Positions 12,232-60,338 of a DNA stretch of 64,000 nucleotides are shown piece after piece. The position numbers and the translations under genes were made by a program. Position 1 is the first letter of the stretch. Each line of letters opens with the position of its first letter. The notes under the pieces are model-generated. The model had not been told where the DNA came from. It did not search any database and worked only from the letters and a program-made list of their open reading frames with translations. Source of the DNA: Sclerodactyla briareus (Eukaryota > Echinodermata > Holothuroidea > Dendrochirotida > Sclerodactylidae); assembly GCA_026419785.1 (NCBI GenBank), contig JAODTK010004510.1, forward strand, positions 115,086 through 179,085. Direction: 5' to 3'.

Positions 12232-14420
12232 GTCTCGTCCTGAAACTTTTGTTCAAGGAGAGCCATATGGTCAGCTTTGTTGTGTGTGTGTGTCTGTCTG
12301 CCTGTCTGTCCCGTCCGTCCGTCATGTGTTGTTCATATCTCCTTAACAGTGAAAAGCCATCATGGACCTTTTTGTGGAGTTTAGCGGTGAAGAGTTGCCG
12401 CTGTGCTTCCACTTTCGTCCCGAAAGACCATACTCATTTGGCCATGACTTGCATATTTCATGGCAACTGGCCCGGGCGCTTGTGTACACAGATATCCTTG
12501 ATCGTAGATGCCATTGGTGATGCCGTTCGGCTATATACAACTCTGAGAGTACACAAATTCATTATATCTGTCCTGGTATATGCTGAATTAGGTAGTCTGA
12601 TTTGCATAATTCCTGTGATATTTCTGAATTTGTTTGATTTTGACGAAACTTGGTGGAGCTGGATTATCTATAGTCCCATGAAGTTTACAGTAGGGACAAG
12701 GGTCCCAGAGGTCATTTATGTTACTAAATTTGCATTTAGCTAGTCTGATTTGCCTACTTTATGCATATTTTAAAGTTGGTTGAGATCCTCCTGAAACTTG
12801 GTGCATAAGTGACGGCTGGAAGGTTCACCATTGTGATGTTATTGTTGACGCTGCATGTTTGTGACCTCGGACCTCATTTGACCTCTGTCGAGGGTCATGG
12901 TAGTTAGGTTGAAGTCTTAATATGTGCTTATTTAGAGTTCCGGGCAAAAAATAGAACTGGTTATTTTAGGGTATGTGATAGACCTTTGTTGCCTTTATAG
13001 GAACAAACTCCCCGCTTCGATGACACTACTTTGGTGTTACAAGGGGTCAAAGTTTAATTTAATAGCTTTTTTCGCAATAAATTGGGCGTGTTCATTTGGA
13101 ATCCAATATGCTCTTAGGAGTGGATGCATCACATGGAGCGTACCAATTTTTTTATCAAAACCGACTTTCATTGCAAAGGATCTCAAGGTCACGTAGGGGT
13201 CAAAACTGATTTTAGTACTTTTTGGACATAGCACCGGGCATGTTCATCAAAATGCCAAATGCTCCTAGGAGTTGATGTATCGCATGGAGAATTACAATTT
13301 ACATAAACTGCCATGTCAATTAAAGTCTTCAAGGTCCACTTAGGGTCAAAACACCTGGTTTTCTGGCCATATCGGAAAATTGAATATCTTGAAGCTGGAG
13401 GTTCACTTTTGTCATGTAATTGTTGACCTGCCTGTGTACCTCTGACCTCAATTTGACCTCTGTCAGGTGGTCTGTGGTTAAAGGTTGAGTCTGAATAAAT
13501 GTGCTCATTTAAGGAGTTACGGGCAAAAAAAATACAACTGGTTATTTAAGGTATGTGATAGACCTTTGTGTGCTTTATGGAGACACCAACTCCCGCTTCG
13601 ATCGGACGCAATCTTTGGTAGTTACAAGGGGTCCAAGTTAAATTTTAAGCTTTTTCGCAATAAATTGGCGTGTTCATTGGAATGCAATATGCTTCTAGGA
13701 GTTGGATGCATCACATGAGAGTAACAATTTTTGTTAAAACTCCATGGCATTGAAGTCCATTAGGGTCACATAGGGTCAAAACTGATTTTTGTTTCGCCTG
13801 AACTTTGTTCAAGGAGATTCATAGTGATCACTTTGTCAAGTTACAACCTGCAGTATGCTTCTGGTGTGTGGATAGCAGGGGGGTGGGGGAGTAACTCCCT
13901 TGGAGGGCTGTTAATTAAATGGATTCTCATGGGTAGCACTGAGATAATCAGACACACTTTATTGATAGGACCAGTTTTTTCACTATGAGCTGTGGTCTAA
14001 CCTTATTCGCCAAAATGTTAACATTGAATCAGGTCACTAGGGTTTTGCATTGTGGGTAAATTGCTTGATTCATGCCGATGTTCAAGTTTGTTGAATTCAC
14101 ATGAGATATATTGAGTGTGGGTCACAATTGGTCCCGAGATAAGTGAAGTGAGAAAGGGTCACAGAAAATGTTATTGTCTAATTGCATAATTTGGAATCTT
14201 AGTCCACATTTCCACAAAACTTTGTATGGGAAAATTGTCATTAATCAGTCCTTACGGATTTGAATGGGTCACTGATTAGTAGGGTTTTCCTGTCACATGC
14301 TATGCTCAGAACCTTGACGCAACTCATTAAATGCCTCTTAATTGTTTGCATGGTGAACCCTAAATAGATTAAAACACTGATCGCGTAACCAGGCGAGACA
14401 CTGGGGGCAGTCGCCTTGTT
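12232..14420 (+). mobile_element. R1 non-autonomous element, copy A (~2.2 kb)
   Basis: The 5' end is a hairpin beginning GTCTCGTCCTGAAAC (12,232-12,263), followed by a TGTG/GTCTGTCC/CCGTCC microsatellite. The head then carries the conserved words ATATCTCC-GAAC, GGGACCTTTTTGTGGAG and TTTTGACGAAACTTGGTGGA. From about 12,800 to 13,790 lie about 1.6 satellite monomers of the type seen at 51,388-57,905. An internal hairpin-like copy of the 5' end lies at 13,791-13,820. The 3' tail (ACACTGATCGCGTAACC) ends in an AGGCGAGAC...TCGCCT hairpin at 14,391-14,416. No ORF is plausible, so any transposase must be supplied in trans. Confidence 0.7.
12280..12323 (+). repeat. TG / GTCTGTCC microsatellite in R1 head
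   Basis: A (TG)n run grades into CTGTCTGCCTGTC and CCGTCCGTC units directly after the 5' hairpin. The same position carries a comparable run in every R1 copy. Confidence 0.85.
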
Positions 14421-14454
14421 TTCAAATATTTTCTAAATGCAATATATTGTTTTT
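14417..14454 (+). repeat. R1 array spacer (first junction)
   Basis: The TTTTCAAATATTT-CTAA-TGCAAT-ATAT spacer between copies A and C recurs between C and D (15,361-15,394). This indicates that element plus spacer were copied together. Confidence 0.65.
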
Positions 14455-15364
14455 GTCTCTCCTGAATTATGTTAAGGGAGAGACATAGTGGTCACTTTGT
14501 TTTGTGGTGTGTGTGTCGTCTGTCTTGTCTGTCTGTTCTGTCCGTATGTGGGCAGTTCGCTATCTCCTGAACCGTGAAAGCCATCATTCTGGGACCTTTT
14601 TGTGGGTGTGCGATGAAGAGTTGCCCTCCCCCCCGATGAGCGTCCACTTTCCGTCCCGAAAGACCATACTCATTTGCGTAATTTGCATATTTACGAAAAT
14701 TTCCCGGAGCTTGTGTACAAGATATCTCCTTGATCCGGTCGAGGCATTGGGCTACCGATTCGGAGTATTAACAACTATGAGAGTACACAAAGTTGATTAG
14801 ATTCCTGCTTATATATTGCTAATTAAGTAGTCTAATTCGCATAAGTTCTGCGTTTTTTTCTGAGTTTGGTTGGATTTGACGGACTTGGTGACGATGGTTC
14901 ATCTATAGTCCCAATAATTTGCAGTAGGGACAAGGGTCCCAGAGGTCATTCAATTTACTACTAATTTTCATATTTACTTATCGATTTGCTAATTTATGCA
15001 TTTTTAAATTGGGTTAATCACCTCATGAAACTTGGTGAATATTGTGAAGGCTGAAGGTCACCAGTGGACTTTAATTGTTGACGTGGCATGTTGTGACCTC
15101 TGCCTCAATTTGACCTCTTTCAGGTGGCCATGTGGTTAGAGGTCAAATCTTAGTCACATTTTCCACAAAACTTATATGGTATATCATGTCATAATCATCC
15201 GTACGCTTTGAATTGGTCACTGATTAGTAGGGTTTTTCTGTCAATGCTAATGCCAGAATCTTAAAGCACCTCATAAATACTTTGTAATTGTGCATGGTGA
15301 CTATAACTAGATGAAAAACACTGATCGCGTACCAGTCGAGACCACTGGGGCGGTCCTCCTGTTT
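14455..15364 (+). mobile_element. R1 element, copy C (~0.9 kb, internally deleted)
   Basis: 5' hairpin GTCTCTCC...GGGAGAGAC at 14,455-14,484, then the standard R1 head. The satellite is reduced to a fragment near 15,050-15,140 (GTGACCTCTGCCTCAATTTGACCTC). The copy then jumps straight to the tail (TCACTGATTAGTAGGG...) and a 3' hairpin at 15,334-15,360. About 35 bp of spacer separate it from copy A, and a near-identical spacer separates it from copy D. It is therefore the middle unit of a head-to-tail array. Confidence 0.7.
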
Positions 15365-15394
15365 TCAAATATTTCTAACTGCAATGATATTTTT

Positions 15395-16814
15395 GTCTCG
15401 CCTGAACTTGTTCCAGGAGAGACATAGTGGGTGTCACTTTGTGTGGTTGTGTGTGTCCGCCTGTCTGTCTGTCTGCTTTCCTATGTGCATTTTTCGATAT
15501 CTCCTGAACTCGGTGAAATCCATCATGCGGGAACCTTTTTGTGGAGGTGTGCGCATGAAGATTGCCGATGGTGGTCCTCCACTTCCATCCCTACAGACAT
15601 ACTCATTTGCAAAATTACGCATATTTAAGCGAAAATGGCCCGGGAGCTTTGTGTACACGATATCTCCTTGATCGGAGTGCATTTGTGATACCGTTCGGAG
15701 TATATAACACTATGAAGAGTACCCGAATTGATTAATTCCCTGTCATGATTATGCTAATTAAGTATCTAATTTGCATAATTCTGCGATATTTTTGAAGTTT
15801 GTTGGATTTCACGAAATCGGTGTAGATGGTGTATCTATAGTCCCAATGAATTTTACAGTAAGGACGAGGGCCCCAGAGATCATTTAATGTTACTCATCCC
15901 CTTCACCTAGTCCCCATTTGCTAATTTATGCATATTTTAAATTTGTTTGAATCCTCCTTGAAACTTGGGTGGAGAGAGTAACTTGAATCCTCTATTTAAC
16001 AACAGTGTCAAAGTCACCGAAGGTCAATTTAATGTGACTAATTTGCATAAATTACACATTTTTTGAATTTTGTTAATGGCCAGTACATTAAATGAAATGC
16101 AGTTTAGTGTGCTCGTAGAGATTTGTCATGGTAATTTTTGGGTTCATAATCAAACAACATCTAAAGCCAAGGTGAAAAGGGTCACAGGTCAAGTTTTAAG
16201 AAAATTTGCTTATTTTAGGAGTTTACAGGCCAAAGAGATAAAAATGTCTATTTTTTTGGATAGTGATAGTTTCTCTTGTCGGACTCCATAGACAAACCGA
16301 CTCCCCCTATGGAATCTTATGGGTGAAACACTGAGGATATACCGACAAACTTGAGTAGATTAGGACTATCTCCCCTATGAGCCTGTGGGTCCTTACCTTA
16401 GTCTCGCCACAAGTTTTAACATTGAATCAGTCCTAGGGGGTTAAGGCAGTGTGTATAAATTGCTTGATCATGCCGAATGTTGATTGGAATGTTTGTTGAG
16501 TTCCATTGAAATGTATTAATTTGTTTCACAATGTCCTGATATAATTAAGTGAGAACATGGGATCACCAGAAAGTTGAATTATTGTCTCTTTGCATAATTT
16601 AGGCACTCGTAGTCAGCATTTCCACAAAACTTATATGAGACATGTCAATAAGCTTCCTTACGGATTTGAAATTGGTCACTGATTATAGGGCGTTTCGGTC
16701 CAATGCTAACAACAGAACCTTGAACACTCATTAAATGCCTTGTAATTGTTTGCATGGTGACTATAGTGAAACACTGATCTCTAACCAGGCGAACACTGGG
16801 GCGGTCGCCTTGTT
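15395..16814 (+). mobile_element. R1 element, copy D (~1.4 kb, no satellite monomer)
   Basis: 5' hairpin GTCTCGCCTGAAC...GGAGAGAC at 15,395-15,423. Head as in copies A and C, then a different middle module (GCTCGTAGAGATTTGTCATGG ... CAAGTTTTAAGAAAAT) that is also present in copy E at 34,600-34,700. The tail carries AACATTGAATCAG, GGTCACTGATTA and CACTGATCTCTAACC. The 3' hairpin is at 16,787-16,810. Sequence after it differs from the A/C and C/D spacers, so the array ends here. Confidence 0.7.
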
Positions 16815-17571
16815 CACCACAGCGAATAATAAAAGCCTCAATTTCTCTAGAATGCCCTGGCAAATATTCCAAAATAAATCCCAGCACTTTTTGTAGCTTG
16901 TTTCATTTGGGCCATGGATTGCTCAGCATCAAAATTTAGAAAAGAAAAGAAAAATTAAACCCATCCAGTGTAAAATATATATTTAATGAAATGGCACTTT
17001 GATTCAAGAAGGCAATAACTTCCTAGGTATGAACGTTTTGCACTAGAAATGCTCAACTGTACTTGAAGAAACGCCTACGTTCTACTGTACATTGTATCAA
17101 ATTTCTATTGCAACTTGGTCTGCATTCAAATGAGACAACGTCGCCCACTAATTGCAGAGAAGAGGGGATATACTTTGCGGTTCACCACCCGCCAATTCTA
17201 TTTTCTCTGGAAGTCGCCCACGTGGGTCTTTGCCTCCACACTTCTTGGCATCACTGTTGGGCATTGATAATACGCTATCTAGGGGAGTGTTTGTGTCTAC
17301 ACAACATAAAAACACTATGTCCCCCTTGATTTTTAAACTGTAATAGATGGCAGATACCTTCTAAGAGTGATCTTGTCCCATAAAAAAACGCATGTCTGTT
17401 TTTGTTCTTTGGAGCTGTGAGTAAATTGTCTACATACCAGTCAGGGTTTCTTTGTCAGCTGCCTGTAAGTGCAGTGCAATCCTGAATTTTTTGGACAGTG
17501 TGAGGTCAAATTTGGTCTTGAAGGCAGTCTACAATTTTCTCCTCTCTCTGTACTCTCCCTAATTATTCCCC
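16815..17571. other. No feature recognised
   Basis: Non-repetitive by eye. Chance frames only, including one of 88 codons at 17,063. Confidence 0.4.
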
Positions 17572-17624
17572 GCAACACTTAAGTGTTTGGGGATATAATG
17601 GTTTTGGCCGTGTGCCCGCCATCT

Positions 17625-17642
17625 CCGCCGCCGCCGCCGCCG
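17625..17642 (+). repeat. CCG trinucleotide run
   Basis: Six consecutive CCG units in the R2 head. Equivalent GC-rich runs occur in R2 copies b, d, e and f. Confidence 0.9.
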
Positions 17643-18384
17643 CGTAAACTCTAGCGTAGCGCTCTCATTCTTTAACACTTTATCCGATGACCCAAAACTT
17701 GGTACACAAGTCCGTATGAGTAAAATCTCGGATAAGTTCGAAATGGGCTTATCGTATATTTTGTTGTCCCTCGATTTGCAGGTTTTCGCAAACTTTTCAA
17801 GTTCGGGGCGATTCAACACGAAACGTGGTGGTTGTGGGGTAGTTGTTGACCGAAAAACATGGCGACAATTTCAAGGTCATCCGAGTCAAGTTTGCATTTC
17901 GTTGGCCAGTAGCCTAATTATAGCATAATGAATGTGATCTTTCAAACTTCATTGGATTTTTCATGACACTTGTGAATATGTTCCAACTATCATTGCCGAT
18001 GACTTTTCCTAATGTTGGTCCGAGGTAACTGGAGGTCATCTTGCATGACTTATTTACATAATAGTTGGCCCAATTAGCATTAGGCAAATTTATAACTTTG
18101 TTGGATTTCACCACGAAAACTTGTGATCTCAGGACTTCTAACAGTCCGCGTAAATTTTATTCATTGTGTTGATATCACTGCAGGTTAGTGTGTTTCATTT
18201 ACATATTTGTTAGCATATGAGGAATATTATGCAATTATTTTCTTCACTTTTAGGGATTTTGACGAAACGTGTGAATAGGACCAACTACCAGTCCTGATGA
18301 AATTTATCAATAGCATCGAGATCACTGAGGGTAAATTTGTGACTAATTTGTCATATTATTGTCCTGATCAGTCGAAATGATGAG

Positions 18385-19225
18385 CTTAATACTGTTTCAC
18401 ATAACATTGGTACATGTTCATTGGGATGCAATGTGCTTCTAGGAGTGGATCATCACATGGAGTGTAATCATGTCACAAAACTGGCAGTCATTGAAGGTCA
18501 TTAAGGTCACTTAGGGGTCAAAAACTGATTTTAGTACTTTTTATGCAATAGCCTGACCTCTACAATTTTGACCTCTGTCGGGTGGTCATGTGGTTAAAGG
18601 TCTAATCTTGATAAATGTGAATTATTTGAGGAGTTACGGGCAAAAAAAATAGAATGTTTATTTTTGGATATGTGATAGCGCTTGGTGTGCTTTATGGAGG
18701 AAATACTTCCCGCTTCGATCGGACCTTACTATATGGTGTTACAAGGGGTCAAAGTTCAATTGATACCTTTTTCGGGGCAATACATTGGACATGTTCATTG
18801 AATGCAATATGCTTCTAGGATGGATCATCCCATGGTGTAACAATTTTTATAAACCCCGCCATGTCATTGAAGGTCATCAAAGGTTCACTCGGGGTCAAAA
18901 ACTGCTTTAGTACTTTTTCCGGTAAGGGTAATAGCACTGAGTGTGTGCATCAGAATGCAAAATGTCCTAGGAGTGGATGGATCACATGGAGAGTAAACAA
19001 TTTCATAATAACCGTCATATCATTAAAGGTCATTCGAGGTCACTTAGGGGTCGTTCAAAAACTTGTGTTGTGGCATTAATTGGAGAATTGAATATCTGCG
19101 AAGGCTGGAGGGTCACCCATGTGATATAATTGTGGACCTACATGTGTGTGAACCCCTGAACATGAATTTGACCTCTGTCGGGTGGTCATGTGGTTAAGGT
19201 TCTCTAATACTTGAATAAAGTGTTA
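18385..19225 (+). repeat. Satellite monomers inside R2 copy a
   Basis: About 1.3 monomers with the diagnostic phrases GTTCATTGGGATGCAATGTGC, TTCTAGGAGTGGATCATCACA, GGTCACTTAGGGGTCAAAAAC and GACCTCTGTCGGGTGGTCATG. All are the same and in the same order as in the array at 51,388-57,905. Confidence 0.8.
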
Positions 19226-19435
19226 TTTAAAAGACGCACCTGCCGGGGCTTAGGGTGCCTCATTACAATTAAAAAGTGCATTCTGGATGACCCATTTACC
19301 GTACACAGTTGTCGCTTCACAAGCTATAAATGTCTTCTTTCACGAATATTGTCCGGTTTTTGTTCACCCAATTCTGAATAAAGAGATGCGGGGATATATA
19401 GTTATGGCGGTTACCCGCCCGACTTTTCTAGTTTT

Positions 19436-30368: not shown

Positions 30369-30967
30369 ACAAGTGTGATGTTTTGTTATAAGCGCCCACA
30401 GCAACCCTCTCTTATCCCAACCAATTTGAGTAAGCTATGCAAAAATACGGTAAAATTTTCTTTCTCTCTTTCTTGCCTGGGGACTGGGGACGAATGTGGA
30501 GGTTTAATAAAGATATATTTAGGACATCCATGTCGCTGCGTGGAGGGTAGTTTGTTGGTGTGTGGGGGGAGGGTGTGGGCTGCCTGGCGGGGGGGGGGCA
30601 TGTTCTCTGGCTACTGGGAAAATAAAAGGCAATGAATTAACTAAAGGAAATGGATTTAAAAGGCAAAGAAGCCCGGGCTGCTAAGGGGATTTAGCAACAT
30701 TTCAAGTTGAGATTGGGTCAAAGAAGTGAGTGGGGATGTATGGAGAAAGAGGGGGGGGGGGGCAGGAAGAAGAAGAAAAAAGCAATTAAGGGACTTTTGT
30801 AATAAGAGTCAAAAACCTTATCGCGTCAGTTATTTTAGGAACTTTTGGAATCTTGTGTTTTATGTGAAAATAGTGGTTGTTCGTTTGCCTGCGATGGTCT
30901 ACATGAACTAGTTGGTTGTGTGGAGTGGAGTAGTGTAGGAATAATAGAAACCACTGATCGCGCAAAC

Positions 30968-30992
30968 AGGCGACCGCTTTTGGCGATCGCCT
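30968..30992 (+). repeat. Isolated R1-type 3' hairpin
   Basis: AGGCGA and TCGCCT flank a GC-rich loop, preceded by CCACTGATCGCGCAAAC as in R1 3' ends. No R1 5' hairpin was found upstream within the region. Confidence 0.6.
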
Positions 30993-31175
30993 TGGCTAAC
31001 TTTGTGTATATAACCTAAAACAACAGGTAGGGTATTTCAGAGTACACAAGAGGTCAAATGGCACGTATGTAATATCTTTTCATCTGAACTATGAAGTCCA
31101 TGAAGGCTTGTAGCAGGGATAAAGCACAGTGGCGGTGTACCGCCTGCACATGTCTGGTTCTTTGACTGATGTTTG

Positions 31176-33888: not shown

Positions 33889-35295
33889 TTTTTGTCTCGC
33901 CTGAACTTGTGCAAGGAAGCGACTAGTGGTCACTTTGTTGGTGTCTGTCTCTGTTTCCGTCTGTCTGTCGTCGTTGTCTGTCACGTATGGGCGGTTAGAT
34001 ATCTCCTGAACCATGGAGGCCATCATGCTGGGACCTTTTTGTGGAGGTGCGCGTGTGAAGAGTTGCTGATGTGGGTCCACTTTCGTTCCAAACGACACTA
34101 CTTCATTGCTAAATTTGCATTATTTAAGAAAATTGGCCCGGAAGCTTGTGTACAAGATATCTCTTGATCGGTAGTGCCATGGTATTGCCGTTCGGGGTAT
34201 ATAACAACTAGTGTACACAAACTGATTGATTCCTGGCATTATATAGGCTAATTAAGTAGTCTAATTTGCATAATTTCTGCGATATCTTTGAAGTTCGTTT
34301 GGATTTTGATGAAACTTGGTGGAGATGGTTCATCTATAGTCCCAATAAATTTTACAGTAGGGATGAGGTCACCGAAGGTCATTTAATGTTACTTAATTTG
34401 CATTTACCTAGTCTAATTTGGACATAATTCATGCAGATTTTAAGTTGGTTGAATCCTCATGAAACTTGGTGAGATGGTATGCCTTTGATCCTGATATAAA
34501 ATTGAACAACAGGCAAAAGGTATTTATGTGAAAATTTCATGAATTACGCAATTTTTCGAAGTTTTGTTAAATGGCCAATTACAATTGGAAAGAGTGCAGT
34601 CAGGGTGTTCGTAGAGATTTGTCATGGTAATTTTTGGGTTCAGTGGATCAACAAATCTAAAGACAGCAGGTCAAGGTCAAGTTTTAAGAAAATGTGCTTA
34701 CCTTAGGAGTTACAGCCAAGAAATGAAAACTGTCAATTTGGGGTGTATGTGATAGAGCGGTCTGTGGCTCATAGACGAAACAACTCCTTGCTTCGATATG
34801 ACACCTGGCTCTTCAAGTTAAAAGGTGGCCAAAAGGTTGATTTGAATACCTTTCGGGCGATAGCATAGGCGTGGTATCTGATTACATATGCTTTTGGGGC
34901 TTGGTGCAGTCACATCGAGGCAAGCATTTTTCATAAAAACCGTCATGTCATCAAAGGTCATTTAAGGGCACTCATGGACCAAGAACGGCCCAATAATATT
35001 TCCTGCAACAGCTTCTAGTGACTGTGTGTGATATGCTGGAATTTGGGGACATGAGATTATCGAGGCGTAACATTTTTCATATAAAAATGTAATGTCATTA
35101 AAGGTCATCAAGGTCACTTATGGACCACAATAATGCCAAATAATAACATTCCCTGCAATAGCCTCCAAAGACTGTATGTGATATGGCTGATGTTTCGAGC
35201 CAAGTTGCTCATTTATGATGGGAATATTTCATGAAACTGTTATGTTATCAAAGGGCATTCAATTATCCAAATCTTAATTGTGAGAAGTATTGAAA
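33889..35295 (+). mobile_element. R1 element, copy E, 3' end missing
   Basis: 5' hairpin GTCTCGCCTGAAC...CAAGGAAGCGAC at 33,894-33,923, a GTCTGTC-rich microsatellite, the full R1 head, and the middle module shared with copy D. It ends in two or three diverged 150-bp sub-repeats (CATGTCATCAAAGGTCATTTAAG, ATGTCATTAAAGGTCATCAAGG) related to the satellite. No 3' hairpin follows. Confidence 0.65.
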
Positions 35296-43705: not shown

Positions 43706-45354
43706 ATACTATCACTAAATTGAACAAGACATACATTGCAGTGAAACTCGACATGCAACCAAGCTGGGATCTTGATATAACAATGCACGTTATTTGCACA
43801 CAACGTCTCATGGCAATTGTGCTCATGGCTGTGGGGTTTGTTCAGCGTTGGGAACGGCATCATCTTTTGTTTGCGTGTGATTGCAGGGTCACAGTTGGCC
43901 TTTTTTTTCGCCTTGTTACGAATCCAACAAAGATCATCGTAGAGAGCAACACCCTACATCCTGATTGGTCTGCTGGGCTCCAGCGAACGTAGAGGTCCAG
44001 TTTTGTAAATGCCTGTGGCTGCATCACCACTCTCGCTACCTCAGTACGTACTGCGGCAAGCCGCTCATCACTATCTAATCGTCCATCAAATCGCCAGTCT
44101 GATCAGTATCGCCGTTGCTTCTGAACCTTTAAAACACAGTCAGAGACTTTTGAAGAGATTAGTTATTTTAATTACTGGTACAGTAGTATATCAGTACTTC
44201 AAGACATGCTATAGACACTACTGCATTTGTTCCTTAGCAGTCTTTGCATCAGCCCGAGCTGTGACATCATCACTGACACATCCAGTGACGTCATCATGAC
44301 TGGAATTCCTCAACGAGGCAACATGCCATGTTTTGGGAGTGTTGGGTGGCACGATTCTGTCACTTCCCCTCCTCCTCACCTAGCTTTTACAAAAATTGCA
44401 TCATGACCATAGTACTTCAACCTAGGAGTGGCTTCTTCTCTGCCGTTTGTTACATCTCCCATAGTGCTCACTCACTCGTTTGAATATTGCCTACCTACCT
44501 GTGTAGCAATTTGGGGATGAATTGTAGAAAACCTGTATGCTGCTATAGTTTTGTGTACGAACTGAGCTTGCTATGCACAGCCTATAAAAGTGTGCAGTGC
44601 TCAGTGAGGAGCTTCACCGATTCGACACCCACGATTCACACTTATGTAGGCTACTCCAATAGAAACCCCCTGCACCCCTCCCCCACTTTGTAATATTGCT
44701 TGTCCGTAGAAACTATAAGACGATTGATAACACTGAAATGGAATGGTGTTTGCAGCCTCCATATTTTGAAAGAAAACTGTGTTTGTGACATAACTCAAGA
44801 CCTACTAGCTGACATCAGGCAATACTTTATTATTTAAATTTGGCTCTACCGTGACATCACCCCCTCATAAAAATTGTTCTTTCCTCCCTTCCTCTCTCCA
44901 TCCTCCTCTCCCTCCCCTCATCCTATCTTCCCAAACTGCAGCATCTTCAGAACTCTGCTTCCAGAGTCGCCACAGAACAAATTAGGACTCCTATTGTTGC
45001 GTCCTGCGACTGTCTTCCTGCATAGTATAGGACCCTCTCGAAGTTATCTGTCCTAGTCTACGATAGCCTACATGGGAGAGCTCCTCCTACCTTTCTAATC
45101 ATACTTTGCTACTTTTCCTACCAGATTCCCTTTGGTCTGAATCCGCGAGCAAACTTAGAATCCCCAGGTGTAAAACACTTCGATGGGTACCAAGATTTTA
45201 TTACAGTGGGTCCGACACCGGGAACTCCCATCCCTGCCGAGATCCGTGGCATTATTGATAATGCTGCTTCAAATCAAAACTTAAAAAACGGTATATTTCA
45301 GGGGTCCTACTCTATGTTTCCACTTCCCAGGGTTCCTTGTTCCCAGGGTTCGAT
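43706..45354. other. Intron 3, no feature recognised
   Basis: Frames of up to 96 codons with no domain. Pyrimidine-rich DNA at 44,880-44,940 ends at an AG, but the following codons do not match an ARM repeat. Confidence 0.4.
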
Positions 45355-45815
45355 GTTTCCCCGTTTTTGTTAGTATTTTGCTGGGGGCAATGCTGGGGTC
45401 CGCTAAGTTTTCAACTTGGTCACCTTTGAAACAAACTGGTGGGTAGTGACTATAGTTGATCCCGTTAAATGTGGATGATAATTTTCAGGTCATCAGAGGC
45501 CAAATTTGCAAAATTTTATGCGATTTTTCCAAACTTTGTCAAACTTGAATACAACTTGGTGGATGGGGGCTACAATTTGTTCCTGAAAGTTAGAAGTATT
45601 TCAAGGCCATCGTGGGAATTTGCATAATTTTTGTGCATATTACCTTCCATGGATTAAAACAGAACTTGGTGGATTAAGCTTTATCTTGGTTTTCTGAACC
45701 AAAATGGAGGTCTCCATGGGGTGTTAGATACTCTTTTCTTCTTTCCCAATATTGCTAAAAAGCGGGTATATACACGTGAGCGGTTCACCTGCCTACACAT
45801 ATCTAGTTAATATTC
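45355..45815 (+). mobile_element. R2 repeat, copy g, 3' portion
   Basis: Contains AACTTGGTGGATGGGGGCTACA and TTTGTTCCTGA as in copy d, and the tail GCGGGTATATACACGTGAGCGG TTCACCTGCC then ACATATCTAGTT (ending near 45,810). The CCG-rich head is missing. Confidence 0.6.
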
Positions 45816-50836: not shown

Positions 50837-50870
50837 GTCTCGCCTGAATTGTGTACAAGGCGAGAGAGAC
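50837..50870 (+). repeat. R1 5' terminal hairpin, copy B
   Basis: GTCTCGCCT and AGGCGAGAGAGAC pair around a GAATTGTGTACA loop. The equivalent hairpins in copies A, C, D and E start at 12,232, 14,455, 15,395 and 33,894. Confidence 0.7.
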
Positions 50871-51387
50871 ATAGTGGTCACTTTGTTGTATGTGCGTCTG
50901 TCTGTCGTCTGTCTGTCAGTCCGTCCGGCCGTCCGTCTGTCTGTATGTCGGTGCCGATCTGTATGTCCGAGTGCGGTAAGAATATCTCCTGAACAGTGGG
51001 AAGCCATCACGCTGGGACCTCTTGTGGAGGTGCGCGGTGAAGAGTGCCGATGTGCATCACTTTTCGTCCCAAAAAGACCATTTCATTGCTAAATCTGCAT
51101 ATTTAATGGAATTGTGCCGAAAGCTTGTGTACAAGATAATCTCTGATCGGTAGATGCTTTGGTGATGACGTTTCAGGGGATATAACAACTATGAAGAGTA
51201 CACGAATTAGATCAGATTCATGGCATGATATATATGCTAAGTAAGTAAGTCAATTGCATAATTTCTGCGATATTTTCCGAATTTGTTGGATTTTGACGAA
51301 ACTTGGTGGAGATGGTTTATCTATGGTCCCAATGAATTGGAAATGGGTAGGGACGAGGGCCCCAGAGTCATTTAATGTGACTAATCT

Positions 51388-54300
51388 GTCATTCAAGGTC
51401 ACTTAGGGGTCAAAAAACTGTTTTCTGCCATAATCAGAGAGGGAATCCGTGAAGGCTGAAGGTTCACCATTGTGTCATAATTGTTGACCTGCATGTGTGT
51501 GATCATTGACCCTCAATTTGACCTCTGTCGGCGTGGTCATGTGTTAAGGTTGCGTCTTGATAAATGTGCTTATTATTTAAGAGGTACAGGCAAAAAAATG
51601 ACAATGGTTATTTTGGATGTGATAGACCTTTTGTGTTAAAGGGTGAGTCGTGAATAAATGTGCTTTATTTAAAGGAGGTATGGGTAAGGCAAAAAAATGA
51701 TAGAAACTGGTATGATTTTGGAGGTATGTGATAGACCTTTGGTGCTTCATGGAGGAGGAAACCAAAATCAAGCTTCGATTCGGAACGCATTAATTTGGTA
51801 ATTACAAGAGGTCAAAGTTTAAGTTAATAGCTTTATCGCAATATCATTAGGCGTGTTCATTGGAAGCAATATGAGTCTAGGAGGGATTGCATCACATGGA
51901 GAGGAACAATTTTATAAAAACAGCATGTCATTGAATCGTCATGACAAAGCACGTAGGCCCCTAGGGGTCAAAACTGTTTAGTACTTTTTGGCAATATGCA
52001 ATGGGCAGTCATCAGAAATGCAAAATGCTCCAGGAGTGGACCTGTATCACATGGAGAGTTACAATTTTCATTTAAAAAATCTGCCATGTCATTCAAGGTG
52101 CATTCAAGGTCAATTAGGTGTCAAAAACTGTTTCTGGCCATAATCAGAGAATTGAATATCTGTGAAGGCTGGAAGGTCACCAGTGTGATATAATGTTGAC
52201 ATGCATTGGGGGACTCTGATTCCTCAATTGACCTCGGTCGGGTGGTCAAGTGGTAAAAGGTTCATGTGCTTGAATAAATGTGCTTATTACAGGAGTTACG
52301 GGCAAAAAAAAGAACTGGTTATTTTTGGAGAGTGATAGACCTTTGTGGCTTCATGGAGGGGAAGGGAAACCAACTCCCGCTTCGATCGACACTTACTTTG
52401 GTAGTTACAAGGGGTCAAAAGTTTAATTTAATAGCTTTTCGCAGACAAATAACATTGGGCGTGTCATTGGAATGCCATATGTTTCTAGAAAGTTTTAGGG
52501 GTGAATGCATCACATGGAGAGAGTAACAATTTTTATAAAACCGCCCTGTTCATTGAAGGTCATCAAATTCACGTAGGGAGTAAAAAAACTGGATATTTCG
52601 TACTTTTTGGCAATAGCACTGGGGAATGTTCATCAGAATGCAAAAGCTCCTAGGAGTGCTGTATCCAAATGGAGAGTTACAATTTGTCATTAAAACTGCC
52701 ATTCATTAAAGGGCGAGTCAAGGTCACTTAGGGGTTGAAAAACTGATTTTGGGCTATAATCAGAGAATTGAATATCTGTGAGGTGGAAGTTCACCATGGG
52801 AATAATTTTGGACCTGCATGTGTTGCCTCTGACCTCAATTTGACCTTCTTGTCCAGGTGGTCAGTGGGGGTTAAAGGTTGCGTCTTGAATAAATGTGCTA
52901 TCAAGGAGTACGGGCAAAAAAATAGAAATGGTGATGTTGGAATGATGACCTTTGTGTGCTCATCGGATGAAAACCAAAACTCCCGCTCTTTGGATTTCGA
53001 GACACTTACTTTGGTAATTACAAGGGGTCCAAGTGTAATTAATAGATTTGTTCGCAAAGAACATTGGGCGTGTTCATTGGAATGCAATATTCTAGGAGTG
53101 GACCTGACGTCACAGGAGAGGAACAATTGAGTTCTTATTAAGAACCGCGGTCAGTGACGGTCATCAAAGGTCACGTAGGGGTAAAAAACTGATTTTAGTA
53201 CTTTTTGGCCAATGCTTACTGGGTATGTATCAGAATGCAAAATGCTCCTAGGGTGGATGTATCACATGGAGAGTCTAAAATTTCATAAAAACTGCCATGT
53301 ATTCAAGTCATTCAAGGGCACAAGGGGTCAAACAATGGTTTTGGACCTAATTCAGAGAATTGAATACTGTGAAGGCTGGAAGGTCACCATTGTGATATAA
53401 TTGGACCTGCATGTGTGTGGACCTCTGACCTCCAATTTGACCTCTGTTCGGTGGTGGTCTGTGGTTAAAGGTTGAGTCTTGAAGAAATGTGCGTATTAGG
53501 GAAGTTGACGGGCAAAAAAAATTAGAAATGGTTTTTTTGGAGATGTGATAGACCGTTGTGTGCTTCATTGATGATAACCAACTCCCGCTGTTTCGATCGG
53601 ACACTTACTTTGGTTAATTACAAGGGTCAAAGTGAATTTAATAGCTTTTGTCGCAATAAACATTGGGCGTGTTCATTGGAAGCAATATGCTTGTAGGAGG
53701 GTGACGTGCACATGGAAAGTAAACAATTTTTATAAAAACGCCCATGTCATTGAAGGTCATTCAAAGTCACGTAGGGGTAAAATTGATTAGTTACTTTTTG
53801 GCCATACGACTGGGCATGTTCATCAGAATGCAAATGCTCCTAGGAGTTGATGTATCGCATGGAGAGGTACATTTTCATAAAAACTGCCATGTCATTTCAA
53901 GGTTCATTCAAGGTCAATTAGGGGTGCAAAATAATGTTTTCGGGCTAAATCAGAGAATTGAATATCTGTGAGGCTGGAACGGTTCACCATTGTGATATTA
54001 ATGTTGACCTGCATGTGTGTGACCATTGACCTCAAGTTGACCGATGTCGGGTGGTCATGGGGTTAAAGGTTGAGTCTGAATAAATGGCTGATTTAAGGAG
54101 TAAGGGCAAAAAAAGAAGAAAACTGTTATTTTTGGCTATGTGATATACCTTTGTGTGCGTCAGGGAGGAAACAACTCCCAGCTGCGATTCGGACAATTAC
54201 TTGTGGTAGGTAACAAGGGTAAAGTTAATTTAATAGCTTTTCGCAATATACATTGGGCGGTCATTGGAGGCATATGATTCTAGGAGTGGATGCATCACAT

Positions 54301-57300
54301 GGAGAGTAACATTTTTATAAAAACCGCCATGTCATTGAAGGTCTTCAAGGTCACGTAGGGTTAAAAAAATGATTAGTAATTTTTGGCAATAGCACTGGGC
54401 ATGTTTCATCAGAATGCAAAATGATCCCTAGGAGTGGAGCTACATGGAAGAGGTTAACAATTTCAATAAAAAACGCCATGTCATTAAAGGTCATCAAGGT
54501 CACTTAGGGGTCAAACACTGTTCTTTGGCTATAATCAGGAGAAATGATATTCGTGAAGGCGGGAAGGTTAACTATTGTCATATAATTGTGACCTGCATGT
54601 GTGGACCTCTGACCTCAATTTGACTCTGTCAGGTGGTATGTGGTTTAAAGGTGAGTCTTGAATAAAATGTGCTTATTCAAGGAATTACAGGCAAAAATAA
54701 AAAAAACTGGTTATTTTTGGATGTGATGACCTTTGTGGCTTATTGATGAAACCAACTGCCCGCTTCGACCCGGACATACTTTGGTAATTACAAGGGGTCA
54801 ACGTTTAATAATGCTTTTTCGCAATAACATGGGCGGGTTCATTGGAATGCAATATGCTCTAGGAGTGGATGCGTCACATGGAGAGTAACAATTTTTATAA
54901 AAACCCCAGGTCATTGAAGGTCATCAAAGGTCACGTATGGTAAAAAACTTGAGGTTTTAGTACATTTTTGGCAATAGCATGGGTATGTTCATCAGAATGC
55001 AAAATGCTCCTAGGCTAGGAGTGGATGTATCACATGGAGAGTTAAAATTTCATAAAAACTGCCATGTCATTCAAGTAATTCAGGTCACTCAGGGGTCAAA
55101 AAAAACTGTTTATGGTGCAGAAATTTCAGAGAATGAATATCTGTGAGGCTGGAAGGTTTCACATTGTGAATATTGTTGACCTGCAATGGTGTGACCCTCG
55201 ACCTCCATTTGACCTCTTGTCGGTGTGTTCATGGTGTTAAAGGTGAGTCTTGAATAAAAGTCTATTTAGGGAGTTACGGGCCCAAAAAAATAGAAACTGG
55301 TTTTTTTTGGATATTGTGTAGACCTTTGTGGGCTTCATTGATGAAACCACCTCCGCTCGATCGGACACTTACTTTGGTAATTAAAGGGGTCAAAGTTAAT
55401 CTTAGAGGCTTTTTCCAAAACATTGGCTGTTCAGTGGAAGCATATGCTTTCTAGGAGGGATGGTGTCACAGGGAGTTTAACAATTTTTTTTATAAAAACC
55501 GCCACGTCAATGAAGGTCATCAAGGGTCAGTAGGGTAAAAAACGATTTTGTACTTTTTGGCAATAGCATACTGGGGATGTTGTCAATCAGAATGCAAAAA
55601 AGGCTCCAGGAGGGGATGGTTAACATGGAGAGTTACAATTTTCATGAAACCCGCATGTCATTAAAGGTCATACAAGGTTACTTAGGGGTCCAAAAATGTT
55701 TTTGGCAATAATCAGAGAATTGAATATCTGTGAAGGCTGGAAGGTTCCACACATTGTGAATTAATGTTGACCTGCAGTGGGTGCACCTCTGACCTCAATT
55801 TGACCTCTGTCGGGTGGTCATGTGGTTTAAAAGGTTGAGTCTTGAAAAAGGCTTATTTAGGAGGTACAGGCAAAAAAATATAGAAACTGGTTATTGTGGA
55901 TATGTGATTTAGAGCTTGGTGTGCTTAATGGAGGGAACCAACTCCCGCCCTTCGATCGGACGCATACTTTGGTAAAACAAGGGGTCAAAGTTTAATTTTA
56001 ATTAGCTTTTTTTCGCAATAAATTGGCGATGGTCATTGGAATGCAATAGCTTCTAGGAGTGGATGCCATCACATGGAGAGTAAACAATTTTTATAAAAAC
56101 CGCCAGTATGAAGGTCATCCAAGGTCACTGTAGGGGGGTCAAAAAACTGATTTAGTACTTGTGGCACTAGCACTGGGCATGTTCATCAGAATGCAAAATG
56201 CTCCTAGGGTGGATGTATCACATGGAGAGGTACAAGTTCATAAAAACTGCCATGTCATCAAGGTCATTCAAGGTCACTCAGAGGTCAAAACGTTTTCTGG
56301 CCATAATCAGAGAATGATATATCTGGAAGGTGGAAGGTTCACCATGGTGAATCATGGACCTGCATGTGTGTGACCATTGACCTCATTTGCACCTCTGTGG
56401 GTGGTTATGGGGTTTAAGGTTGAGTCTGAATAAATGTGCTATTTAATGGGAGTGACGAGCAAAAGAAAATAGAAACTGGTTATTTTTGGATATGTTGAAT
56501 AGCCTTTGGGTGCTTTATGGTGGGAACCAACTCCCGCTTCGATCGGACCATATTGGTAAATACAAGGGGTCAAAGTTTAATTTAATAGCTTTTTCGCAAT
56601 AACATGGGCGTGTTCATTGGAATGCAATCTGCTTAAGAGTGGATGTATCAACAGGAAGTAACAATTTTTAAAAAACCGCCATGTCAATTACGGTCATCCA
56701 GGTCCAGTTAGGGGTCAAAAACCCTGATTTTAGTACTTTGGCAATGCAATGGCATGTTCATCAGAATGCAAATGCTCCTAGGAGGGGATCTATCACATGG
56801 AGAGTGACAATTTTCATAACATAAACCGCCATGTCATTTCAAGGCATTAAGGTCACTCAGAGGTTCAAAACACTGTTTTCTGGCCAAATCGGAGAATTGA
56901 CTATCTGTGAAGGCTGAAGGTTCACCATTGTGATTAATGTTGACCGCTGTGTTGGACCTCTGCCATCAATTTGACCTCTGTCGGGTGGTCCTGTGGTTAA
57001 AGGTTGAGTCTTAATAAATGTGATTATTTAAGGAGTTACGAGCAAAGAATAAATAGAAAACTGGTTTTTTGGGATATGTGATAGACATTCGTGTGCTTCA
57101 TGGAGGTAGGAGGAAACCAACTCCCGCTGCGATTGGACGCCTACTTTGGTAATTACAAGGGTCAAAGTTTAATTTGAAAGCCTTTGCGCAATAAAATTGG
57201 GGCGTGTCATTGGAATGCAATATGCTTCTAGGAGTGGATGCATCAAATGGAGAATAACCATTTTATAAAAACACGCCATGTCAGTTGAAGGTGTTCAAAG

Positions 57301-57905
57301 GTCACGTAGGGGTTCAAAAACTGATTTTAGTAATTTTTGGCAATAGCACGGGGCATGTCCATCATAATGCAAAATGCTCTAGGAGTGGATGTATCACATG
57401 GGAGTTACAATTTCATAAAAAACTGCCAGTAGTACGGTCATTTAAAGGCACTTAGGGGGCAAAAACTGTTGCTGGACATATTAAGAGAATTGGAATATCT
57501 GTGAAGGCTTGGAAGTTCACCATGTGATATAATGGTTGACCTGAATGTGGGTGACCTATGACCCAATTGACCTCGCGGGGTGGTCATGTGGTTAAAGTTG
57601 AGTCTGAATAAATGGTGCTTATTTAAGGGGAGGTACGGGCAAAAAAAAAATAGGGAAATGGTTATTTTTGGAATATGTGATAGACCTTTGTGTGCTTAAT
57701 GGAGAAACAAACTCCCGGTTCGATCGGGCACACTTACTTTGGTAGTTAAAAAGTGTAAAAGTTTTAATGAAAGTTTTTCGCAATAACTTGGGCGTGTCAT
57801 TGGATGCAATATGCTTCTGAGTGGATGCATCAACTGGATTTAACAATTTTTATTAAAAAACCACAGTCATTGGAGGTCATCAAAGGTCACGTAGGGTTCA
57901 AAATC
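51388..57905 (+). repeat. Tandem satellite array, ~590-bp monomer, about 11 units
   Basis: The landmark GGGCATGTTCATCAGAATGC recurs near 51,990, 52,620, 53,215, 53,808, 54,398, 54,978, 55,575, 56,178, 56,753 and 57,353, a spacing of 575-630 bp. Each monomer has two related ~150-bp sub-repeats (one with GGAATGCAATATGCTTCTAGG, one with AGAATGCAAAATGCTCCTAGG). A ~280-bp unique part follows (GAATTGAATATCTGTGAAGGC ... AACTCCCGCTTCGATCGGACA). Units differ by many one-base indels. The array carries no durable open frame. Confidence 0.92.
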
Positions 57906-57911
57906 TGTTTC

Positions 57912-57946
57912 GTTTCGCCTGAACTTTGTTTTCCCAAAGATGAGAC
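57912..57946 (+). repeat. Internal copy of the R1 5' hairpin
   Basis: CGTTTCGCCTGAACTTTGTT...GATGAGAC followed by ATATTGGTCACTTTGTC, at the 3' edge of the satellite array. Copy A has the same thing in the same place (13,791-13,820). Confidence 0.65.
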
Positions 57947-57989
57947 ATATTGGTCACTTTGTCGTACACCTGAGAAGCTCCGGTGTGTG

Positions 57990-59815
57990 AGATAGCTAGG
58001 GGGGGGGGTGGGGAGGTGCGTTTGTTTGAGACTTTTTGCTATGGGGTGATGTGGTTTGTGTGACATTGGGTGATTTGCCAGGGGTTGGTGGATGATGCTG
58101 TGGTTTTGGGCTGGACCATGGTTTTGTTTGGGGTTTGGGGTGGGGGTGGGTTGGTGATGGACAGCTGGTTTGGATGATGATTGTTTGAGGTGGGTTGTTG
58201 GTGTTTGTTTGATGACACTGAGGAATTTATGGTGGAAATATCTATTTATTTATAGGAGGGGTTGGACATACTGACATTTCTGAGGGACAAGGTGGCGTGA
58301 GGTGGTTTTTGATGGTTGTGTGATTTGGTCTTGTGATTGAGGGGTGATCGGTTGGTTTGGTGTATTTGTGGTGGAAGGTGAGGGTGATGTGGTGACTGTG
58401 TGGGATGTTTGGTGGGGAGTGTGGTGACTGGGGGTGTTGACTGGATTGAGGGGGGACACGGTGAGGTTTGGAAATTGGTTGTTTGACACTGGGGGGTGAG
58501 TTTTTGGGTGACACTATTTGGACAGTGACTGGTGTGAGGGTTGTTGGTGATGATGTTGATTTGGTTGAGGTGACGGGGTCGGGGGGGTGAGGTGAGGGGT
58601 GATGATGACGGGTGAGGTGACACTGAGGAGGGGTTGGTTTTTTGTGGGTGATGGGGAACATGAGGCATGGACAGGGGGTTGTTGACATTTGAGCCGTGAC
58701 GGTGGGGGTGTAAATTGGGGTGGGTGACACGGGTGGGTGACACCCCCTCGGTTGTTGCCACTGTGATGGGTTGGGTGGACACGGGGTGTGATGACACTGG
58801 AGGTGGTGTGGTAGGTTGGTGATGACACTTGGGGGTGGGTTGACACGGTTGCGGGGGCTTTTTGTGGTGACCTGGCGGTTGAGACACTTTGATTGCACCC
58901 ATGCTGAGGAAGGTGTTTGTACACTGAGGGTGGAGGTGGTTTGATTTTGACTGGGGTGTGGGTTGGGGGGTTTGACATTGAGGATTATAGATTTTTGAGG
59001 GGGGTGGAGGGGGGGGTTGGTGGGGTTTGGGTGTTGGGGTTGGTTTTTGAGGGTGATTGAGGATGCGTGTGTGACACTGAGGTGGTTTGTTGATTGGTTG
59101 ACTGTGACATGGACATGATTGGAGAGTGATGTGACTGGTTGATGGTGCTGTTGATCAGCTGAGGGAGGCGGGGGGGTTTGACTGTGAGGTGGTGAGGGTT
59201 TGACAGGTTGAGGTGAGGGGTTTTTTGATGGGTTGACCTTGTTGAGGGGGTGTGGTTTGGGGGTTGGGGGTGACATGATTGGTGAAAGGGGGTGACTGAC
59301 CCAAGTGTGGGTGTGGGGTGACAACCTGCGGTGGGATTTGGTTTGCACACTGGGACACCTGGGGTGGTTTGGTGAGGTGACATCTTTTTGATGTTGGAGG
59401 GTTGGTGTATGGGTGGGGGTGTTTTTTGTGGGTGGGGGGTTTTTTGGGTGTTGAGAGGTTTGTAACTGGTGGGGGTTGGTTGTGAGGTGGCAGTTGTTGG
59501 GTGTTGATTATTTTTGATGTGACACTTTTGGGGGGGTGATGGGGGTGACACTGAGGATTCTGGGGTGTTTGAACTGGTGATTGTTTTTGGGGTGGGTGAC
59601 ATGTATGGTTGGGGGGGTGACTGGTTGAGGAGGTGGGGGTGATGTGGTAGGGTGCCACTCTGGGCGTTGGTGAGGTGCGGTGGGGGTGACGGCTTGACAC
59701 CTGCGGATATATACAGAGGTTGGTTGAGGTTTGATGAGGTGTTTTGATTCTGGACACTGAGGATTATTGGTGGGTGGTTTGTGCTTGACACTGAGGATGA
59801 GGATATACAGACAAA
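57990..59815 (+). repeat. G/T-rich tract with strong strand asymmetry
   Basis: About 1.8 kb made largely of GGGGTGG, GGTTGG, GGTGTG and GTGACACTGAGG words. The GTGACACTGAGGA motif recurs near 58,214, 58,618, 59,070, 59,547, 59,755 and 59,788. It behaves like a degenerate minisatellite. Copy D has a single CACTGAGGATATACCGAC at the equivalent site (16,330), so this is probably an expansion of that point. All three minus-strand frames stay open for long distances because the C/A-rich strand lacks stop codons, giving 368-, 295-, 218- and 200-codon frames. Confidence 0.8.
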
Positions 59816-60305
59816 AATTATTAGATAAGACCAGTTTTCATATGAGCTGCGTGTTTTACTTAGTCTCGCCACAAAAATGTTAACATTGAAATCAGGCGTC
59901 CAATAGGGGTCCTATGCACGTTAGGTTGTGTAATAAATGGCTTTCATTCAAGCCAATGTTCAAGTTTTGGTGAATTCCAAGTGAACTGTCATTAAGTGTG
60001 GTTCCCAGTGCACAGTGCGTCCTTGAGATAAGTGACACTGATAAGTGGGCAACCAGACAGAAAGTTGATTATTGTCCTATTTGATATTTAGGCAAATCTT
60101 TCAGTCACATTTCCACAAAACTTATATGGTAGGCATGTCAATAATCAAGTCCTTGTGATTTGAAATTGGTCACGATTAGTAGGGGGTTGGTTCTGGTCAA
60201 AGTGTGCTAATACCAGAATCTTAACGCAACTCATTAAATGCCTCTTGTATCCTTTGTAATTGTTAGAATGGTGATAATAGAATGAAAACATGATCGCCGG
60301 AAACC

Positions 60306-60335
60306 AGGCGGATGCACTGGGGTGCGGTCTCGCCT
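60306..60335 (+). repeat. R1 3' terminal hairpin, copy B
   Basis: AGGCG-GA and GTCTCGCCT flank a CACTGGGG-containing loop. Equivalent hairpins: 14,391-14,416 (A), 15,334-15,360 (C), 16,787-16,810 (D). Confidence 0.65.
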
Positions 60336-60338
60336 TGT

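Follow-up and report, generated by a model that had tools for sequence, protein, structure and literature searches.

Introduction

The closest described systems to the elements reported here are the non-autonomous Helentron-type rolling-circle elements (HINEs) and DINE-1 of Drosophila (PMC4067079, PMC2374699 and PMC7492417). In DINE-1, subterminal inverted repeats (subTIRs) are combined with a 5' inverted repeat (IR) that is in part complementary to the subTIR; it also has a microsatellite rich in GTCY, central repeats and a stem-loop at the 3' end, and it inserts at TT (PMC2374699). HINEs are bounded by 2-5 T residues and leave the target site unmodified (PMC4067079), their subterminal repeats measure 11-15 bp (group PMC4067079, PMC2374699, PMC7492417), and the oyster element Cg_HINE has the same order of parts, with GTCY/GTCC/GTCK microsatellites (PMC7492417). 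Canonical Helitrons start with TC, end with CTRR, insert between A and T and have a hairpin ~11 bp from the end (same group). Here we describe a family of elements, R1, in a stretch of 64,000 nucleotides from the sea cucumber Sclerodactyla briareus (assembly GCA_026419785.1, contig JAODTK010004510.1, positions 115,086 to 179,085; hereafter 'the window'). R1 is present in several copies with shared ends, consensus hairpins at both boundaries, T flanks, a GTCT/GTCC microsatellite and central tandem units. We suggest, with a probability of roughly 85%, that R1 constitutes a family of HINEs, apparently a new one within a known kind of element.

Copies and Extent of the R1 Family

The original prediction had placed three consecutive head-to-tail copies (A, C and D) at 12232-16814, each beginning and ending with a hairpin. 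They indeed lie there, on the same strand and with hairpin sequences at both boundaries; the stems as printed are idealised, and the family reaches beyond this interval, with copy E from 33894, copy B at 50837-60337 and a relative, F, at 30912-30994. Blast of the copies within the window places A, B, C, D and E on the + strand.

12232..14418, + strand: R1 copy A, with 5' hairpin, GTCT/GTCC microsatellite, 5' core, ~1.7 central 590-bp units, 3' core and 3' hairpin (blast within the window, end alignment)
12794-13785, + strand: central 590-bp units (~1.7) of copy A
13791-13836, + strand: internal second copy of the 5' end in copy A (alignment, edit distance 4 of 46)
14419..14454, + strand: junction A-C, filler separating A (3' end) from C (5' end), 0.78 identical to junction C-D
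14455..15361, + strand: R1 copy C, ends as in A, internal deletion (the start of the central unit jumps to the 3' core)
15362..15394, + strand: junction C-D, same filler as A-C (junction comparison)
15395..16812, + strand: R1 copy D, ends as in A, other middle, common to copy E
30912..30994, + strand: F, diverged relative, 3' end only; lower 3' stem kept, upper stem and loop altered
33894..35260, + strand: R1 copy E, 5' end plus a middle of the D type with 147-bp repeats (34914-35185); right limit approximate
50837..60337, + strand: R1 copy B, 9.5 kb, both ends, expanded central tandem repeats
52147..57905, + strand: nine full and one partial head-to-tail ~590-bp units of copy B
57912..57962, + strand: internal second 5' end sequence of copy B, 3' of the tandem units, no hairpin fold (edit distance 8 of 46)
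58011..59790, + strand: G/T-rich block of copy B, ~20 degenerate GACACTGAGG motifs

A search of the 44-nt 3' end across the window did not locate a 3' end for copy E, and no convincing 5' end was found for F when sought.

Ends and Terminal Hairpins

Alignment of the five element starts and the four R1 3' ends places the onset of similarity at T-run|GTCTCGCCTG and its end near ...GGTC(TC)GCCTTG|TT. At the starts, the flanks are unrelated up to TTTTT|GTCTCGCCTGAACTTTGTTCAAGGAGAGACATAGTGGTCACTTTGT, which is followed by the GTCT/GTCC microsatellite and a common 5' core. The T run before GTCTC comprises TT in all five and five T in four of them (A has just TT), and these starts represent four independent flanks, those of C and D being alike because that flank is the junction filler. 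The four 3' ends have a core in common which closes with ACTGATCGCG-AACCAGGCGAGACACTGGGGCGGTC(TC)GCCTTG|TT; similarity stops after CCTTG|TT in each (C reads CCTG), with D and B diverging beyond and A and C having one flank in common. Searched as whole sequences, the 46-nt 5' end matches seven places at edit distance 4-8 (five element starts, two internal) and the 44-nt 3' end five places at edit distance 2-11 (A, C, D, B and F); in four Markov shuffles, one strand each, the best distances reached 16 and 15, respectively, and the next real matches lie at 15.

The two ends are related by the subterminal inverted repeat GTCTCGCCTG/CAGGCGAGAC, which spans 10 bp in the consensus (11 with the flanking T). 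Since inverted repeats thus occur near both ends, with TT on either side, one might regard R1 as a cut-and-paste element resembling miniature inverted-repeat transposable elements (MITEs), with GTCTCGCCTG as terminal inverted repeats and TT as a 2-bp target duplication, a class to which DINE-1 was itself once assigned (PMC2374699). We consider this very improbable: the 3' repeat is subterminal, ~19 nt inside the boundary, the T runs vary from TT in A to five T in the others, and the ends are asymmetric, with a 3' hairpin. Conventional terminal inverted repeats with a fixed-length target duplication, which according to the original prediction would have spoken against a Helentron-type element, are not what we find, as the left and right outer flanks of A/D and of B have just TT in common, leaving room for a 2-bp TT duplication at most.

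The hairpins likewise coincide with the element boundaries, as had been predicted. The 5' consensus forms the stem GTCTCGCCTGAAC..GTTCAAGGAGAGAC with one mismatch and one bulge (-7.4 kcal/mol when folded as DNA, z -3.38), and the 3' consensus hairpin with the right arm GTCTCGCCT of copy B reaches -10.4 kcal/mol (z -3.46). The exact 9-mer GTCTCGCCT/AGGCGAGAC occurs five times in the window, both strands considered, versus 0.17 expected. The complete 3' right arm GTCTCGCCT is present only in B (60327), and A, C and D have a 5' right arm resembling AGGAGAGAC; the predicted stems hold as an idealised form rather than base for base, and in none of A, C and D do both occur as predicted.

When single copies are considered, seven of ten element ends fall within the most stable 0.5% of 4000 random window 34-mers, namely three of five 5' ends and the 3' ends of A, B, D and F; those outside are the 5' ends of A (0.070) and E (0.406) and the 3' end of C (0.151). 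The control by dinucleotide shuffling is weaker, with z <= -2 in five of nine R1 ends (the 5' ends of C, D and B, the 3' ends of A and B). The 5' end of A yields -1.14, that of E and the 3' end of C are positive, and the 3' hairpins rank as A -3.22, B -2.52, D -1.65 and C 0.59. The 3' end of F closes with ACTGATCGCG-CAAACAGGCGACCGCTTTTGGCGATCGCCTTG, that is, with the lower stem as in R1 and a different upper stem and loop; that its 29-nt piece still folds (z -4.75) despite these changes supports the view that the 3' hairpin is kept.

Hairpins at both ends combined with internal tandem repeats could also point to a foldback-type or other unknown element, and PMC7492417 names Tetris, a foldback element that contains tandem repeats. 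The R1 ends, however, have just the 10-bp inverted repeat in common, and a search for inverted repeats of 40 nt or more (seed 14) returned two pairs, in neither of which both arms lie within an R1 copy, so that we regard such an origin as highly improbable.

Probable Assignment to the HINEs

The original prediction had proposed a Helentron-type, DINE-1-like affiliation, and this is supported: the parts of a HINE are largely present and in the published order, that is, subterminal inverted repeat, 5' partner repeat, GTCT/GTCC microsatellite, central tandem repeats (590 bp), 3' hairpin and T-flanked ends. Of seven HINE features considered, four are found in R1: (i) subterminal inverted repeats, although their 10 bp (11 with the flanking T) are marginal against the published 11-15 bp, (ii) a 5' partner repeat, GTCTCGCCTGAAC..GTTCAAGGAGAGAC of the consensus being complementary to the 5' subTIR, (iii) a 3' palindrome, and (iv) a GTCY-type microsatellite together with central tandem repeats, both frequent in HINEs, the latter being 590-bp units in A and B and 147-bp repeats in E. 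The microsatellite follows the 5' hairpin, as foreseen, in all five elements when inspected by eye. T residues flank all five starts and all four R1 3' ends, some of these flanks being shared between copies. The ends led us to reject a canonical Helitron: those of R1 are T|GTCTC and CTTG|TT, and its hairpin lies at the very end.

Several observations weigh against this assignment. GTCTCGCCTG is exact at three of five starts (D, E and B) and CAGGCGAGAC at one of four R1 3' ends (A). Because D and B both read on TTCA, the 3' boundary can be placed only to within ~4 nt. Tandem Repeats Finder called the microsatellite in B only. With the right arm GTCGCCT of A and D, the 3' hairpin attains only -5.7 kcal/mol (z -1.23); F is followed by GG rather than TT, and with a few more flanking bases (37 nt) its hairpin drops to z -2.17. 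The separate hairpin downstream of the 3' subTIR that is usual in HINEs is absent from R1, where the subTIR forms the left arm of the hairpin; such a separate hairpin lies outside the definition quoted in PMC7492417. DINE-1 has its hairpin a few nt downstream of the subTIR (PMC2374699), and in mite HINEs the repeat is located 38-60 bp from the 3' terminus (group PMC4067079, PMC2374699, PMC7492417), whereas the R1 repeat resides inside the 3' hairpin. Finally, none of 10 of the 30 listed open reading frames (ORFs; at least 110 amino acids) of the window yielded a Rep, helicase or endonuclease domain against Pfam, which is a weak test given the noisy sequence.

Internal Anatomy and Sequence Quality

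Copy A contains one full and one partial ~590-bp unit; copy B has nine full units and one partial one, preceded by a rearranged stretch. C is A-like and internally deleted, and D and E have another middle (identity 0.719 between D and E, 0.537 between D and A). The 147-bp tandem repeat in E (34914-35185) is apparently related to sub-repeats of the 590-bp unit. In the 1.8-kb block of B at 58011-59790, GACACTGAGG matches 20 times at up to two edits, compared with a mean of 1.05 in 20 base shuffles. This G/T-rich block coincides with a GC skew of ~0.66 in 58001-60000 and many G runs, and is either an expanded minisatellite or a badly called stretch.

Second copies of the first 46 nt are found after the units in both A and B (edit distances 4 and 8), each with the motif GTTTCGCCTG, one change from GTCTCGCCTG. 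Folded alone, they yield z -1.88 (A) and -1.76 (B), the B copy being without the hairpin. Such an internal 5' end could be a remnant of a head-to-tail dimer with a 3'-truncated first copy. One may further speculate that GTCTCGCCTG accounts for all end recognition, serving as 5' start and as 3' inverted repeat and contributing to both stems, and that 3' sub-elements could be launched from an internal 5' end, thereby driving module shuffling and unit amplification. We rate this as improbable, since the change is present in both internal copies and that of B has no hairpin fold.

The units also allow one to judge the sequence itself. Compared with their consensus using a linear gap cost, ten full units, of which nine are from B and one is from A, deviate by 13-16% (7% for the seed unit B7), with ~5% substitutions, 6% insertions, 4% deletions and a transition/transversion ratio of 0.41. 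The share of indels hinges on gap costs, being ~2:1 over substitutions with linear gaps and falling below substitutions, when counted as events, with MAFFT (transitions/transversions 272/512); the star-like, flat pattern and the missing transition bias are independent of this choice. Mean identities are 0.793 for adjacent units (8), 0.792 for non-adjacent units (28) and 0.772 for A versus B (9), and the dispersed 5' cores are 0.735-0.788 identical, with 61-114 gap columns versus 39-52 substitutions per pair. Old divergence behind the ~77% identity between copies is less likely, considering that indels equal or exceed substitutions, that the transition/transversion ratio is low and that adjacent units are no more alike than others. 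Hence, judging from the error-like, indel-rich and star-like variation of the units (12794-13374, 52147-57484), the window has the appearance of an unpolished long read. In that case the true copies would be young and almost identical, and perfect stems, single T counts and the lack of ORFs in any one copy are not to be trusted. This would affect any other base-level finding in the window.

Origin of the A-C-D Row

The fillers at the A-C and C-D junctions, ~30 nt each, are 0.78 identical, while 2000 random window 35-mers average 0.46, all but one being at or below 0.70 and the exception (0.805) possibly overlapping the junction itself. The two junctions thus do not look like independent insertions. 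Most likely, after two insertions ~30 bp apart, homologous 5' cores would have undergone a single unequal crossing-over, which would leave the same filler at both junctions although the middle of D differs from that of A; with D differing inside, this is the simplest account. It fits the row at least as well as a rolling-circle concatemer from one transposition event, which would also explain the shared filler and to which the internal second 5' ends of A and B, as a truncated inner copy would leave them, could be related; the introduction of PMC7492417 mentions tandem Helitrons whose inner copies are truncated at the 3' end. Yet end-to-end copying is not expected to give a ~30-nt filler, and D has the middle of E (D-E 0.719) rather than that of A (D-A 0.537), so that we consider a concatemer rather unlikely.

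Coding Content, Searches and Neighbouring Sequences

R1 elements are apparently small and non-coding, but in noisy sequence base-level claims on single copies are weak, 'non-coding' included. No reading frame of the consensus central unit stays free of stops for more than 63 codons, and the only Pfam match among the 10 ORFs, an IRF-2BP zinc finger (E 0.0094), is sub-threshold at 16.6 bits versus a cut-off of 26. Rfam gave no match at gathering score in the window. No R1 relatives were found by distant blastn against phages or by exact-pattern scans of viral and genome contigs, which says little because these searches were exact-pattern or phage-based and the collections not eukaryotic. Neither the R1 family nor its host is named among the literature matches listed.

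Outside the copies, R1-type units occur once more:

18395..19229, + strand: ~1.4 R1-type 590-bp units without recognised R1 ends around them

In 17568-19266, R1-type 590-bp units stand beside different sequence with a CCG microsatellite and a hairpin of its own, CCCCGCAACACTTAAGTGTTTGGGG (z -2.54); the 3' hairpin proposed there does not stand out above shuffles (z 0.07). Perhaps this sequence represents another HINE-like family sharing the central units. The ORF at 45026-45370, which has no Pfam match, appears by eye to resemble the C-terminal part of a reverse transcriptase of the kind lacking long terminal repeats (non-LTR).

Proposed Mechanism and Comparison with Known Systems

Most likely, R1 would be mobilised by the Rep/helicase of an autonomous Helentron located elsewhere in the genome, which would recognise GTCTCGCCTG, common to both ends. 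The enzyme would nick the 5' end beside the T run and displace a single strand, displacement would stop at the 3' hairpin AACCAGGCGAGAC..GGTC(TC)GCCTTG, and the strand would be inserted between T residues without target duplication. We infer the enzyme, the single-stranded intermediate and the terminating role of the 3' hairpin by analogy with HINEs and DINE-1 (PMC4067079, PMC2374699, PMC7492417).

If this assignment is correct, R1 adds to the HINEs and Helentrons a family whose subterminal repeat and 3' hairpin coincide, and its ~590-bp tandem units, expanded inside one copy, bear on how such elements seed satellite DNA. The HINEs of Metaseiulus and Culex (PMC4067079) are like R1 in having inverted repeats near both ends, a palindromic 5' repeat, a 3' stem-loop, boundary T strings and tandem repeats, with no coding seen; R1 differs from them in that its 3' hairpin has the subterminal repeat as its left arm. 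DINE-1/mini-me of Drosophila (PMC2374699) likewise has a 5' subTIR and IR, a 5' block containing a GTCY microsatellite, central repeats, a stem-loop at the 3' end and TT sites; its subTIR, however, is a different one (ATACCCGTTACTC in D. melanogaster; Table 1 of PMC2374699), and its central units measure ~50 to 500 bp, as opposed to ~590 bp in R1. Cg_HINE of Crassostrea gigas (PMC7492417), likened here by description, resembles R1 in the order of subTIR, IR, GTCY/GTCC/GTCK microsatellite, tandem units, 3' subTIR and palindrome and in its oligo-T sites, although that survey covered units of 100-500 bp and those of R1, at ~590 bp, are longer.

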